Below are positions 5,411 through 42,915 of a DNA stretch of 42,915 bases, in pieces. Where the stretch lies: the NCBI GenBank assembly GCA_022764085.1, contig JALERP010000123.1, positions 1 to 42,915 of the forward strand. Direction: 5' to 3'. The position numbers and the translations under genes are program-made. The stretch's first letter is position 1. Each line of letters opens with the position of its first letter. The notes under the pieces were generated by a model. The model ran no database searches and was not told the origin of the DNA. It saw only the letters and a program-made list of their open reading frames with translations. The DNA is from Prevotella sp. (lineage in GTDB: Bacteria > Bacteroidota > Bacteroidia > Bacteroidales > Bacteroidaceae).

Positions 5411-5518
5411 AATTAAGAATTAAGAATTAATAATTAAGAGAAATGGTATTTGCCCAACATAAAATGTCAAGACATTCTTAATTCTTAATTCTTAACTCTT
5501 AATTCTTAACTCTTAATT
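5411..5518. repeat. Inverted pair of AATTAAG heptamer arrays between rluB-like stop and asnS start
   Basis: aattaagaattaagaattaataattaagag ... cttaattcttaattcttaactcttaattcttaactcttaa. Confidence 0.8.
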
Positions 5519-6930
5519 TATTCAAAAGCTCCCATTCTCAGGCGGTCAACTTCCTCCTCTGTGAGGTAGCGCCAGTCGCCGCGGCGAAGGTTCTTCTTGG
5601 TAAGTCCGGCAAACTGAACGCGGTCGAGCTTGGTCACGCGGTAGCCGAGGCTTTCGAAGATGCGACGCACGATGCGGTTCTTGCCGCTGTGGATTTCTAT
5701 GCCCACCTGCTTCTTGTCCTTCTCGTCGGCATATTCACATGCGTCTGCCTGTATCTCGCCGTCCTCAAGTTCAATACCGTCACGAATCTGCTGGATGTCG
5801 TGAGCAGTGACGTTCTTGTCGAGATATACGTGATAAATCTTCTTCTTGAGGAACTTTGGGTGAGTAAGTTTCGATGCCATGTCACCGTCGTTGGTAAGGA
5901 GAAGCACACCAGTTGTGTTGCGATCAAGACGGCCAACGGGGTAGATGCGCTCGCGGCAAGCGTTCTTTACCAGGTCCATAACAGTCTTGCGCTGCTGTGG
6001 GTCATCACTTGTGGTGACGTAGTCCTTCGGCTTGTTGAGCAGCACGTAAACCTTCTTCTCGATGCTTACGGGCTGGTCGTGGAACTTCACCTCGTCGGTG
6101 CGCAATACCTTTGTTCCCAGTTCGGTGATCACCTCTCCGTTTACGGTGATTACACCTGCCTGTATATATTCGTCAGCCTCCCTGCGGCTGCATATTCCTG
6201 CGTTGGCAAGATACTTGTTAAGACGAATCGGCTCGTTCGGATCGTAGTTCTCCTCCTTATACTCGATACGCTTCTTCATGCTATACTTTGCATTCGGGTC
6301 ATAGCCAGGAGTGTGCTGCTTGCGGAATCCGCCCGGACGCTGTGGCTGTCCATAGCCGCCTCTGCCCTGAGGAGCATAACCGCCGCGCTGTGGTTGTCCG
6401 TAGCCTCCTCTTCCTTGAGGTGCATAACCTCCACGCTGTGGTTGTCCGTAGCCTCCTCTTCCTTGAGGTGCATAACCGCCGCGCTGTGGCTGTCCGTATC
6501 CTCCACGTCCCTGAGGTGCATAACCGCCGCGCTGCTGTGGCTGATAGCCGCCTTCTTTTTGGTAGCCGCCTTGCTGCTGATATCCTCCGCGCTGCTGATA
6601 TCCTCCGCGCATCTGATATCCTCCGCGCTGCTGTGGCTGATATCCTCCCTCATTGTTGTACCTTGGACGGTAAGATGGGCGCTGTGGTGCGCTTGATTGG
6701 AGTCCTGCACCGAATCCTTCGGGACGGAATCCTCCTTCCTCCTTCTTTGTTCTGTCAAAAGATGTCATACGTGGACGCTGTGTGCCATTGTTGATGCGTG
6801 GGCGTGGTGAGCGTCCTGGTGTGCGGTAACCCTGATAGCCACCTGTGTTTCCTGCCGACTGATAGCCATCGCGGCCATCGTTGTTCTGCTCAGCAGAGAT
6901 GTTCTCTGGTTTCTTCTCGTTTTCTTCCAT
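5518..6930 (-). CDS. rluB: 23S rRNA pseudouridine synthase (RluB/RsuA family) with low-complexity Gly/Gln/Tyr/Arg-rich N-terminal extension
   Basis: S4 domain 'IRLNKYLANAGICSRREADEYI', catalytic 'YPVGRLDRNTTGVLLLTNDG'; N-terminal QRGGYQ/PQGRGGYGQ repeats. Confidence 0.93.
   Translation of the reverse strand: MEENEKKPENISAEQNNDGRDGYQSAGNTGGYQGYRTPGRSPRPRINNGTQRPRMTSFDRTKKEEGGFRPEGFGAGLQSSAPQRPSYRPRYNNEGGYQPQQRGGYQMRGGYQQRGGYQQQGGYQKEGGYQPQQRGGYAPQGRGGYGQPQRGGYAPQGRGGYGQPQRGGYAPQGRGGYGQPQRGGYAPQGRGGYGQPQRPGGFRKQHTPGYDPNAKYSMKKRIEYKEENYDPNEPIRLNKYLANAGICSRREADEYIQAGVITVNGEVITELGTKVLRTDEVKFHDQPVSIEKKVYVLLNKPKDYVTTSDDPQQRKTVMDLVKNACRERIYPVGRLDRNTTGVLLLTNDGDMASKLTHPKFLKKKIYHVYLDKNVTAHDIQQIRDGIELEDGEIQADACEYADEKDKKQVGIEIHSGKNRIVRRIFESLGYRVTKLDRVQFAGLTKKNLRRGDWRYLTEEEVDRLRMGAFE
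6338..6529 (-). repeat. Four tandem 48-bp repeats encoding RGGYAPQGRGGYGQPQ-type units inside the pseudouridine synthase gene
   Basis: Unit starts at 6338, 6386, 6434, 6482 (cgctgtgg[c/t]tgtcc...ataacc[g/t]cc). Confidence 0.85.
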
Positions 6931-11689: not shown

Positions 11690-11932
11690 ACACAGAGATA
11701 TGGAGACACAGAGATACAGAGACCACAGATACAAAGTCCTTAATGAAATAAGGCTATCAATCACAGTGTCTCTCTGTAACTCTGTGTTTATTATTAACTT
11801 AAGTTTTATATGTCTGTAACATACAGTCAGTAAACAAGTTGACAAGTTGATAGTCCAACCACAAAACAGCAGCAAAAGTAATAACTTGTCAACTTGTCAA
11901 CTTGTCAACTCGTTAACTCGTTAACTATTTGC
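11690..11932. repeat. Composite intergenic repeat: inverted ACACAGAG-type octamers followed by inverted AACTTGTC octamers
   Basis: acacagagatatggagacacagagatacagag / cagtgtctctctgtaactctgtgttt; acaagttgacaagttg / acttgtcaacttgtcaacttgtcaactcgttaactcgttaac. Confidence 0.75.
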
Positions 11933-30466: not shown

Positions 30467-31681
30467 ATGGCAAGAATAGAAGAATTACCCGAATCATTCC
30501 TTAGTTACACCCGTGAAACGATGGGCGAGGAACTTTTCGCCGCCTTTGTGTCTGGACTTGGCGAGGAAGCCCCGGTGAGTATCCGCGTCAACAGGGCGAA
30601 GTGGGATGGTGGTGTGGCGCATGGCGAGCGTGTGCCCTGGTCTGTTGATGGTTATTATCTGCCCGACCGTCCCAACTTCACCTTCGATCCACTGCTCCAT
30701 GCCGGATGTTATTATGTCCAGGAAGCCTCGTCGATGTTTGTCGAGCGGGTGCTTGGTCAGTATGTCACAGAACCTGTGGAGATGCTGGATATGTGTGCCG
30801 CTCCGGGAGGTAAGTCACTTGCGGCAATAGCCACCCTGCCAGAGGGTAGTTGGCTTATGAGCAACGAGCCGATACGCCAGCGTGCGTCGATATTGGCTGA
30901 AAACGTGAGCAAATGGGGTTCAGAACGTATGGTGGTGGTGAATAACTATCCCGTCCAGATAAGCAAGAGCAAGATGAAGTTCGACGTGATATTGTGCGAC
31001 GTGCCTTGTTCGGGCGAGGGTATGTTTCGCAAGGATGCCCAGGCTATAAGGGAATGGAGTGTGCAGAACGTGGAGAAATGCCGACAGTTGCAGCGTGAGA
31101 TAGTGGCTGAGGCATGGAAATGTCTGCGTCCTGGTGGAATACTCGTTTATAGTACATGCACGTTCAATACCCGCGAGAACGAGGAGAACGTGAGATGGAT
31201 TATGGATGAGTATGGGGCGGAGCTATTGCCAGTGGATGTCAGTCGTGAGTGGAATGTTGTAGGCTCACTGTTGGATGGATTTGATGGCCCTGTATATAGG
31301 TTTATCCCTGGAGTGACGCGCGGCGAGGGGATATTCATGGCAGTGATGAGAAAGGAGGGAGAGTGGAAGCCGCAAAAGAAACCTTCGCTCGACAAACTGC
31401 CCCCGATACTTCATCGTATGGAACTGACGAGGTTTGGCGGCGAGGGAAAAGACGTGTCTCCAAGAGTTGAAATAGACTATGACACTGCCATATCATACCT
31501 AAGACGTGAGGCTATCCGACTGCCGGAAGATGCCCCGAGAGGCATTGTCACCCTGACTTACCGCGGGGCTGCCATCGGACAGGCCAAGAACATCGGAAAC
31601 CGCGCCAATAACCTTTATCCCAAGGAATGGAGAATCAAAAGCACTCACATGCCGGAGGGGAGACGGGAGGTCTTGAATTAA
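30467..31681 (+). CDS. RsmF-like rRNA cytosine-C5 methyltransferase (NOL1/NOP2/Sun family)
   Basis: 'DMCAAPGGKSLAAIATL', 'DVPCSGEGMFRKD', 'YSTCTFNTRENEENVRWIMDEY'; start chosen at MARIEELPESF. Confidence 0.92.
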   Translation: MARIEELPESFLSYTRETMGEELFAAFVSGLGEEAPVSIRVNRAKWDGGVAHGERVPWSVDGYYLPDRPNFTFDPLLHAGCYYVQEASSMFVERVLGQYVTEPVEMLDMCAAPGGKSLAAIATLPEGSWLMSNEPIRQRASILAENVSKWGSERMVVVNNYPVQISKSKMKFDVILCDVPCSGEGMFRKDAQAIREWSVQNVEKCRQLQREIVAEAWKCLRPGGILVYSTCTFNTRENEENVRWIMDEYGAELLPVDVSREWNVVGSLLDGFDGPVYRFIPGVTRGEGIFMAVMRKEGEWKPQKKPSLDKLPPILHRMELTRFGGEGKDVSPRVEIDYDTAISYLRREAIRLPEDAPRGIVTLTYRGAAIGQAKNIGNRANNLYPKEWRIKSTHMPEGRREVLN

Positions 31682-31747
31682 GAATTAAGAATTAAAAATT
31701 AAGAATTAAAAATTAAGAATTAAGAATTAAAAATTAAGAATTAAGGA
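31678..31747 (+). repeat. AATTAAG heptamer array downstream of RsmF-like gene
   Basis: ttaagaattaagaattaaaaattaagaattaaaaattaagaattaagaattaaaaattaagaattaagg. Confidence 0.85.
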
Positions 31748-31793
31748 TTTTAACACAGAGGAAGCCCCCCTAATCCCCCGAGGGGGACTTGCA

Positions 31794-31899
31794 TTGCGGC
31801 AGATAACTCTGTGTCCTCTGTAAAAGCAGCTTTAGCTGCTCTCTGTATCTTCCGCACCCGCAAAAAAACTCAGTGTCTCTGTGTCTCTGTGTTCAAAAA
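31794..31899 (+). repeat. Composite intergenic repeat unit, copy 1
   Basis: ttgcggcagataactctgtg...aaagcagctttagctgctctctgtatcttccg...gtgtctctgtgtctctgtgttcaaa; ~112-bp tandem duplication with copy 2. Confidence 0.85.
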
Positions 31900-31905
31900 A
31901 ACATC

Positions 31906-32056
31906 TTGCGGCAGATAACTTTGTGGGCTTTGTAAAGCAGCTTTAGCTGCTCTCTGTATCTTCCGCTACCGAAAAAAAACATAGTGTCTTTGTGTCTTTG
32001 TGTTCAAATAAAATTAAGAGTTAAAAATTAAGAGTTAAAAATTAAGAGTTAAGAAT
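31906..32056 (+). repeat. Composite intergenic repeat unit, copy 2, plus AATTAAG-type tail, upstream of thyA
   Basis: 49-nt core identical to copy 3 (42775-42823, opposite strand); tail ttcaaataaaattaagagttaaaaattaagag... Confidence 0.9.
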
Positions 32057-32088
32057 TTATATATTAAGACATATAGAAATATCGAGTT

Positions 32089-32883
32089 ATGAAGCAATAT
32101 TTGGAACTGCTCGACCGCATACTTACGGAGGGCGTAAAGAAAGAAGACAGGACTGGTACAGGCACCGTCAGTATCTTCGGTAATCAGATGAGATTCAATC
32201 TGGAGGAGGGATTCCCGCTCCTTACCACAAAGAAACTGCATCTCAAGTCGATAATATATGAACTGCTGTGGTTCCTCAGGGGTGACACGAATATCAAGTA
32301 CCTGAAAGAACACGGTGTGAGCATTTGGGACGAGTGGGCAGACGAAAACGGAGAACTCGGTCCCGTGTATGGACACCAGTGGCGCTCGTGGCCAGATGAA
32401 AACGGTGGAACTATCGACCAGATTGAGAACGTGGTGAATATGATTAAAAACAATCCTGATTCCCGACGTATGATAGTCAGTGCATGGAATGTAGCGGAAG
32501 TGGAACGTATGGCTCTGCCTCCATGTCATACTATGTTCCAATTCTATGTAGCCAATGGCAGATTAAGTCTTCAGCTCTACCAACGTTCTGCTGACACATT
32601 CCTTGGAGTGCCTTTCAACATTGCATCGTATGCGCTTCTGCTGCAGATGATGGCACAGGTGACAGGACTGAAAGCGGGAGACTTCATACATACAACGGGC
32701 GACACCCATCTCTACCTCAACCATATTGAACAGGCCCGACTGCAACTGACACGCACTCCGCGCCCGTTGCCGAGGATGGTAATAAATCCGGATGTGAAGG
32801 ACATCTTCGACTTCAGATACGAGGATTTCCAACTCGAAGGCTATGACCCATGGCCGCATATCAAGGCAGCCGTGTCGGTGTGA
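32089..32883 (+). CDS. thyA: Thymidylate synthase
   Basis: 264 aa; '[42 protein letters not shown]' active site. Confidence 0.98.
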
Positions 32884-33489: not shown

Positions 33490-33696
33490 AATATTACTTA
33501 AGTTTTGCATATGCTCAACTTTTTGGAAGTTAAGGAGTTAAGGAGTTATCGCTCCCGTTGGTCGCTTGGAGTTAAGCCATTAGTATTGAGCATTGGATAT
33601 AAGCGCAACAACATTTGGCTTAACTCCTTAACTCCTTAACTCCTTAACTCCTTAACTACCAACTATTATCCTTACTTGTGAAAGTTGAGTAATATT
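33490..33696. repeat. ~207-bp imperfect nested palindromic element with inverted TTAACTCC octamer arrays
   Basis: aattttact-type outer ends aatattact (33490-33498)/agtaatatt (33688-33696); ctcaacttt/aaagttgag; agttaaggagttaaggagtta / taactccttaactccttaactccttaactccttaact. Confidence 0.8.
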
Positions 33697-41753: not shown

Positions 41754-42626
41754 TTAGTCATCATAAATGATACGCATAGTCCTGGGAGCGTAGAAATGGT
41801 TCACAGGCCCGTGTCCGCTACCTATCTCCACCTCAGCTCCTGCAATGAGAGCCGATGTGAGCCAGTACTTGGCTTTGTCAATAGCCTGGTTAATACCCAA
41901 TCCCATGGCAAGATTTGAAGCGATGGCAGCCGATAGCGTGCATCCCGTACCGTGGGTGTTGCGTGTTTCCACTGTTTCGCTCTCGAATGAATCACCAAAC
42001 ATGGCGGTTAATTCGCTCTCACGGGATTCCGTTTTGCGTACTGGGCAATAAAGCATGTCAACCTTTTTCTCTCCTTCTATATGTCCACCTTTTATTAATA
42101 CAGCCCCGGCACGCTTTGAGAGTATTATGCCTGCCACATCATTCATGGATTCTTCATCGGTAATTTTCTTCCCTGCCAGGATTTCGGCTTCGTATATGTT
42201 TGGAGTGATTAGTGTTGACATCGGGAGCAGTTTCTCGATAAACACTTTTATTGCGTCGTCCTGCATCAGTTTTGACCCGCTTGTAGATACCATAACAGGG
42301 TCAACCACGATATTGATATTTTCGATATCGTAGTCGGCGAGGGTGTCTGCAATAGCCTTGATGGTGTCTGCATCATTCACCATCCCGATCTTTACAGCAT
42401 TTGGCTTGATGTCATCCATTACTGCGCGTATCTGTCCTGCCACGATTTCTGGTGGAACGGCATGTACGGCAGTCACGCCCAGTGTGTTTTGCACTGTTAT
42501 GGCGGTAATGGCTGACGCAGCATAGCATCCGAGAGCCGAAATGGTCTTGATGTCAGCTTGTATTCCCGCACCGCCGCTACTGTCGCTGCCCGCAATGCTC
42601 AGAACTGCGATATATCTTGCATCCAT
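41754..42626 (-). CDS. thiD: Hydroxymethylpyrimidine/phosphomethylpyrimidine kinase
   Basis: 'LSIAGSDSSGGAGIQADIKTISALGCYAASAITAITVQNTLGV', 'RNTHGTGCTLSAAIAS'. Confidence 0.96.
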   Translation of the reverse strand: MDARYIAVLSIAGSDSSGGAGIQADIKTISALGCYAASAITAITVQNTLGVTAVHAVPPEIVAGQIRAVMDDIKPNAVKIGMVNDADTIKAIADTLADYDIENINIVVDPVMVSTSGSKLMQDDAIKVFIEKLLPMSTLITPNIYEAEILAGKKITDEESMNDVAGIILSKRAGAVLIKGGHIEGEKKVDMLYCPVRKTESRESELTAMFGDSFESETVETRNTHGTGCTLSAAIASNLAMGLGINQAIDKAKYWLTSALIAGAEVEIGSGHGPVNHFYAPRTMRIIYDD

Positions 42627-42628
42627 TT

Positions 42629-42852
42629 TTAATTCTTAATTCTTAATTCTTAACTCTTAACTTTTAATTCTTAATTTTTAATTCTTAATTTTATTTGAAC
42701 ACAGAGACACAGAGGCACAGAGTTTTTTGTTTTTTAAACACAAAGACACAAAGAGACTATGTCTTTTTTGGTATCGGAAGATACAGAGAGCAGCTAAAGC
42801 TGCTTTACAAAGCCCACAAAGTTTTTCGTCCGCAATGTTTTTCATCCGCAAG
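42629..42852 (-). repeat. Composite intergenic repeat, copy 3 (inverted relative to copies 1/2), upstream of thiD
   Basis: Minus strand: cttgcgga...aactttgtgggctttgtaaagcagctttagctgctctctgtatcttccg...tttgtgtctttgtg...ttcaaataaaattaagaattaaaaattaag... up to the thiD ATG. Confidence 0.9.
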
Positions 42853-42915
42853 GCTTTGTGGCGACTTTTAAGTCGCATGTTACCTTTGTATCAGGAAAAA
42901 CCTTTGTTCCTTTGT

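Follow-up and report, generated by a model that had tools for sequence, protein, structure and literature searches.

The window, a 42,915-nt stretch of Prevotella sp. DNA that corresponds to contig 66 of a 3.0 Mb, 205-contig genome assembly, carries a composite repeat cassette directly upstream of thyA (32089–32883, plus strand; thymidylate synthase by NCBIfam), which lies outside the element as a neighbour. On the plus strand, the first of the parts is a left heptamer array of the AATTAAG type (31675–31749), detected as a tandem repeat. This array is followed by a remnant of a left octamer array (TTTTAACACAGAG, 31748–31760), recognized by comparison with complete copies, in which the rest of the left arm is deleted, and by a nested module (GAAGCCCCCCTAATCCCCCGAGGGGGACTTGCATTGCGGCAG, 31761–31802) that is also found between the arms of other copies. 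Two right arms then stand in tandem with a period of 111 nt, as determined by tandem repeat search: the first (31800–31898; profile match 91.6 bits) has a hairpin at 31825–31840 and an octamer array at ~31869–31894, and the second (31912–32008; 92.9 bits, with copies across the genome) has a hairpin at 31936–31951 and an octamer array at ~31982–32004. A right heptamer array (AAAATTAAGAGTTA, 32010–32057, tandem repeat) follows, so that AATTAAG heptamers enclose the cassette. All that is left of the left arm, TTTTAACACAGAG, is joined to a nested module of the type with a CCCCCGAGGGGG hairpin, and then come the two right arms. Judged against complete copies, the thyA copy is probably a deletion-duplication derivative whose left arm collapsed and whose right arm doubled.

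A second copy precedes thiD (41754–42626, minus strand; HMP/HMP-P kinase by NCBIfam) at the end of the contig. A heptamer array (42625–42690, minus; tandem repeat) is followed by an additional octamer array (42694–42728, minus), which sits between the heptamers and the first octamer array, and by one right arm (42733–42826, minus) with its hairpin at ~42788–42803, both found by profile search. Profile search and comparison also identified a left arm (42850–42915, plus) with the hairpin GCGACTTAAAAGTCGC; the contig ends within this arm. A first-pass annotation had described the two cassettes as matching, and the core and tail bear this out: 31917–31965 is identical to the reverse complement of 42775–42823 at 49/49 nt, and the AT-rich tail has 4 differences over ~56 nt. 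A 29-mer within the core occurs three times in the window (31826, 31937 and 42775) and not once in 100 dinucleotide-shuffled windows. The match does not extend to the whole cassettes; the thyA unit is tandem and the thiD copy alone has a left arm and an additional octamer array, so the two copies do not correspond in every part. The annotation's naming of the two downstream genes agrees with NCBIfam.

An Rfam scan of the window at gathering score returned only one tRNA and left the cassette without a match, on which ground we rejected a known structured RNA, and we found no sigma-70-type promoter consensus or terminator at the thyA site. Two further octamer arrays lie between genes in the window, at 11883–11926 (AACTTGTC, 5.5 units) and 33619–33657 (CTTAACTC, 4.9 units), with unit types that differ from that of the cassette. 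Coding repeats of 48 nt and 18 nt (6338–6660) lie inside an ORF on the minus strand (5518–6930).

Structure and dispersal of the element

Complete copies elsewhere in the genome (L047:34-216, minus; L063:3445-3628; L052:3294-3475) are 182–185 nt long and show that the full element is an imperfect palindrome of ~183 nt, in which an octamer array, two hairpins and an inverted octamer array follow one another; the thyA cassette represents its right arm. The left half runs from the outer array (AACACAAAGACACAAAG) through a spacer, GATACAAAGA, the hairpin GCGACTTAAAAGTCGC and ACAAAG to a short centre. The right half continues with ACTTTGTGGACTTTGT, the hairpin GCAGCTTTAGCTGC, CTCTGTATCTTCCG and a spacer, and ends in the inverted array CTTTGTGTCTTTGTGTT. 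Many copies hold another module, with a CCCCCGAGGGGG hairpin, nested between their arms at the centre. Each arm is a diverged copy of the other in inverse orientation, the right-arm profile detecting the left arm on the opposite strand. Arrays occur as 30 facing pairs (+/−) versus 5 back-to-back pairs (−/+). When a complete copy is single-stranded, its ends pair and two stem-loops protrude; DNA folding of the three complete copies was better than that of shuffled sequences (z = −2.75, −4.61 and −4.30). In the right hairpin, pairing reaches 98%, and two sequences have one double-sided change from C-G to A-T. No GTAG tag is fixed beside the hairpins, AGTAGC occurring only as a C-to-T variant within the stem. 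Of the 48 right-arm units, only 8 contain the −7-like box (TAnnTTTG) that the first-pass annotation had noted in one copy (31915–31922).

Searching the genome with a 161-nt query gave 107 matches at E ≤ 10, and a profile trained on the copies identified, in the genome stretches examined, at least 48 strong right arms, 32 of them with a left-arm partner, spread over 35 intergenic regions. Several contigs terminate in the repeat, so the true copy number is probably higher. The element combines many copies and terminal inverted repeats with the lack of an ORF. Among 26 copies with both neighbours known, 11 lie between tandem genes facing a start codon, 5 between tandem genes facing a stop, 8 between convergent genes and 2 between divergent genes; these counts are approximate because we used our own ORF caller. 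The proposal that the cassette supplies a leader or promoter to cofactor and nucleotide biosynthesis genes fails on these mixed positions, on the lack of a promoter consensus and on the rarity of TAnnTTTG. By the criterion that the first-pass annotation itself had set, the functional-cassette reading fails: beyond a weak 11:5 bias the element is not tied to genes in orientation or position, and thyA and thiD are bystanders.

Filled and empty sites in related genomes

The closest species compared, G153, has a thyA 88% identical to that of our genome. A short AT-rich repeat stands upstream of it in G153 and the unit is absent; where the left heptamer array (31675–31749) stands in our genome, G153 has a different short repeat. 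We placed 24 orthologous sites in G153 using a chimeric query and scored as filled or empty the 13 with alignable genes on both flanks. G153 lacks the unit at nine of these (thyA, two in L043, L062, L057, L052, L066, L055 and L049) and common to both species at four (L069, L065, L064 and L042). Heptamer arrays at the same site vary in unit by species (AATTAAG versus TTCATTC and AATTAGG). We found no evident target-site duplication, the junctions between filled and empty sites lying in repeats; a possible AATT duplication was seen at a single G332 copy only.

A model of the unit matched 16 of 398 genus genomes at E ≤ 0.001, considering up to 10 candidates per genome; six of the 16 matched strongly (G000, G153, G146, G332, G370 and G104), and most of the six hold several copies. 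These pattern and model searches overturned an earlier reading, drawn from 60 relatives of which one had octamers alone, that a 107-nt unit is private to this genome. In a tree of the copies, limited in resolution by the shortness of the sequences, those from our genome mostly group together, and the shared sites L069 and L065 pair across species. With some 48 copies and both filled and empty orthologous sites, the first-pass suggestion of a mobilised non-coding element is upheld, and by sequence comparison the element is a mobile, spreading repeat. In L098 (G104) and L102 (G332) it adjoins an unrelated repeat common to both (CATTTGGCC..GCCAAGAGCGAAACGTGAAATAACT).

Inverted arrays around GxxExxY and S23 genes

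The genome contains three PF13366 genes, and all three adjoin octamer arrays of the element's class (CACAGAG type). Their proteins (L031, L032 and L033) exceed the TIGR04256/PF13366 family cut-off and contain the D..ExK motif. L031 and elements of the genome have 18 identical end bases (GTGTCTCTGTGTTCAAAT); no hairpin arms were seen around any GxxExxY gene, so that the common part consists of the array class and these 18 bases. The cassette itself has no GxxExxY gene between its arrays, and with the three such genes located elsewhere in the genome it is at most a non-autonomous derivative. By eye, the array-bounded L031 gene lies between apparent methylmalonyl-CoA mutase subunit genes. A single scan of IMG/VR contigs, within its sensitivity, found no encoded relative of the L031 protein, and we rejected phage cargo as an explanation.

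Across 31 Bacteroidota GxxExxY loci, an inverted match between left and right flanks was common. Scoring arrays with strict regular expressions gave two-sided arrays at 13/31 loci and 0/183 controls; this approach missed many real variants, and we therefore preferred an alignment test. We applied it to 77 loci from more than 10 phyla in all, including Bacteroidota, Ignavibacteria/Chlorobi, Planctomycetota, Verrucomicrobiota, Chloroflexota, Acidobacteria, Alpha-, Beta-, Gamma- and Zetaproteobacteria, Sumerlaeota, Nitrospinota, spirochaetes and others. Inverted flanks scored above the 95th percentile of 400 control windows from the same loci at 62 of the 77 and above the control maximum at 54 (p = 6e-32); at 23 loci the signal did not exceed this maximum. 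With neighbouring ORFs as controls, bracketing flanks were found at 41/63 GxxExxY genes versus 9/176 neighbours (p = 1.6e-19), and at least three of the nine positive neighbours resemble four-helix-bundle genes in sequence, by eye. A locus's own right flank matches its left flank better than the right flanks of other loci do (p = 3e-26), and the flank consensus, by eye, is TTTAACCACAGAGNNCACAGAGNNCACAGAG, the gene, and the inverse. Among 148 Bacteroidota genomes, the array pattern is present in 32/75 with PF13366 and 5/73 without (p = 3e-7 by Fisher test), a comparison that is not fully independent because the genomes are related and kinship is uncorrected. G466 is an array-bearing genome without a PF13366 match.

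The predicted structure of the GxxExxY protein is confident (pLDDT 94, pTM 0.88). Fold comparison gave SSO0001 (4ic1), a Cas4 protein, as the best PDB match, with LHK-Exo and lambda exonuclease next; no TM-score exceeded 0.5, which limits the resemblance to a common core. A GxxExxY profile had no match among PDB sequences, and NCBIfam gave a sub-threshold Cas4 match. D, E and K are invariant among 30 GxxExxY sequences. GxxExxY (PDDEXK_3) thus models as a minimal Cas4/lambda-exonuclease-like PD-(D/E)XK fold. The literature we searched mentions GxxExxY only in passing, and a search on the repeat sequences returned unrelated papers only.

Heptamer arrays likewise bracket S23/four-helix-bundle genes, as octamer arrays do GxxExxY genes. 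PF05635 (S23) is found in 116/148 genomes, and at 30 S23 loci inverted flanks exceeded the 95th percentile of 180 control windows at 18 and their maximum at 11, the flank arrays consisting mostly of 7-mer units. S23 ORFs are known from intervening sequences of 23S rRNA, which are held to be selfish and have terminal inverted repeats (PMC4990558).

We also observed two other array families. The second (L032, L045, L047, L048, L056, L060 and L068) has the layout AACCACAGAGTTTAAGAGATTAAGAG ... hairpins GCCAAGGC and GTCGCTTGCGAC ... CTCTGTGGTTTAAA and is often bounded by AACTCAAGTTTCGGAAG and CTTCAGAAAGTTGAGTT ends; in L032, a relative of this family adjoins the GxxExxY gene. The third has ACCACAGATTAACACAGATT arrays (L033, L055, G000:C15:28724, C36:11959 and C78:57428), with an AGAGCC..GGCTCT hairpin in L033 and L055.

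Origin of the thyA cassette and relation to known systems

Building on the established dispersal, palindromic structure and filled and empty sites of the element, and on the bracketing of GxxExxY genes by octamer and S23 genes by heptamer arrays, we consider it probable that the thyA cassette is a decayed, non-autonomous, palindromic, array-bounded mobile element, derived from GxxExxY-encoding elements and nested in S23-type arrays. We infer that the arrays flanking GxxExxY genes are the ends of GxxExxY-encoding elements; they could instead be preferred landing places of these genes. The small nuclease gene may be what moves the element. In the mechanism we envisage, the GxxExxY protein would nick or resect array palindromes, which would then anneal into other arrays, so that the element would be copied by resection and annealing and mobilised in trans by GxxExxY. 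Such a mechanism would place elements inside arrays, put one array variant on both flanks of a locus and leave no evident target duplication. More tentatively, GxxExxY proteins might be the recombination nucleases that mobilise an undescribed, domain-wide class of array-bounded palindromic elements, with S23/four-helix-bundle proteins acting likewise for heptamers and the thyA cassette a gene-less parasite of both.

Dispersed, palindromic, non-coding copies with empty sites would also be expected of a MITE of an ordinary DDE or Y1/RAYT transposase, with the arms as terminal inverted repeats, the full copy absent or unassembled, as a 205-contig assembly may miss a master copy, and the GxxExxY link incidental. 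We regard this as unlikely, since no target-site duplication was seen, array flanks track GxxExxY across phyla, and the one clear RAYT gene of the genome (L038, G000:C119:656-1000) has different REPs, at other sites or nested. This gene is flanked by GCCCTGAAAGGGC-type and CCCAGGG REPs, with no element unit in its flanks by BLAST, and on these grounds we rejected a RAYT-mobilised REP. In G153 (L180 and L194), REPs of the C119 kind occupy places filled in our genome by the octamer element.

Less probable still is that slippage and gene conversion alone build and rewrite the arrays, with GxxExxY and S23 as selfish ORFs inserting there and the hairpin composites as enzyme-less by-products. Heptamer units that vary between species at one site and the nesting of elements in arrays fit this account, but slippage does not produce inverted facing arrays (30 versus 5) that enclose two fixed hairpins at 32 sites, and it leaves the spread to new intergenic regions unexplained. 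Stable hairpins, one compensatory change and the 11 of 16 tandem-gene copies that face a start codon speak for a leader or RNA element that regulates in cis (as promoter, attenuator or mRNA stabiliser) and, once brought to genes, was retained for its function, but the copies between convergent genes (8/26) or facing away (5), the missing Rfam match, the scarce TAnnTTTG box and the empty thyA site in G153 make this very improbable.

If the array-bounded class is real, it would account for a large part of the anonymous intergenic repeats, both CACAGAG-type and heptamer, in Bacteroidota, Planctomycetota, Chloroflexota and others. Both protein families, GxxExxY and S23, are widespread and multi-copy and have no known function; the link to inverted arrays offers them a role that can be tested and suggests a candidate cause of the array repeats. 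It also cautions against taking repeats of this kind for regulatory leaders when they stand in front of genes.

In REP/REPIN systems with RAYT (REPtrons) and in TIRtrons, many short palindromic extragenic repeats surround a presumed mobiliser gene (PMC3733652). The element resembles these in its many extragenic palindromes, and its class in bracketing one small gene. REPs are GTAG-tagged 20–40-nt palindromes around a Y1 tyrosine transposase gene, whereas the ends here are 8–10-mer arrays and the bracketed gene encodes a PD-(D/E)XK protein. Like a MITE, the element is a dispersed, non-coding inverted repeat with terminal inverted repeats, no ORF and empty sites in relatives; unlike one, it ends in tandem arrays with no evident target-site duplication, and where a MITE has a parental transposase with the same ends, the array-bounded gene seen here is GxxExxY. 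The 23S rRNA intervening sequences (PMC4990558) are similarly selfish and palindrome-bounded, and inverted heptamer arrays of the class that also encloses the thyA cassette stand on either side of S23-family genes; the intervening sequences sit in 23S rRNA with an S23 ORF, whereas the cassette lies outside 23S rRNA, among protein genes, and has no ORF. TAACTGA heptamer direct repeats, found between genes in Beggiatoaceae, cyanobacteria and Bacteroidetes, have been proposed to act in translational control, with gene rearrangement among the suggested roles (MacGregor 2015, PMC4679880). These too are heptamer arrays, often directly upstream of start codons, but their unit differs and no S23 or nuclease link is named for them (PMC4679880). 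With the GxxExxY-associated array elements, the class proposed here, the element shares inverted CACAGAG-type arrays as its outer ends.
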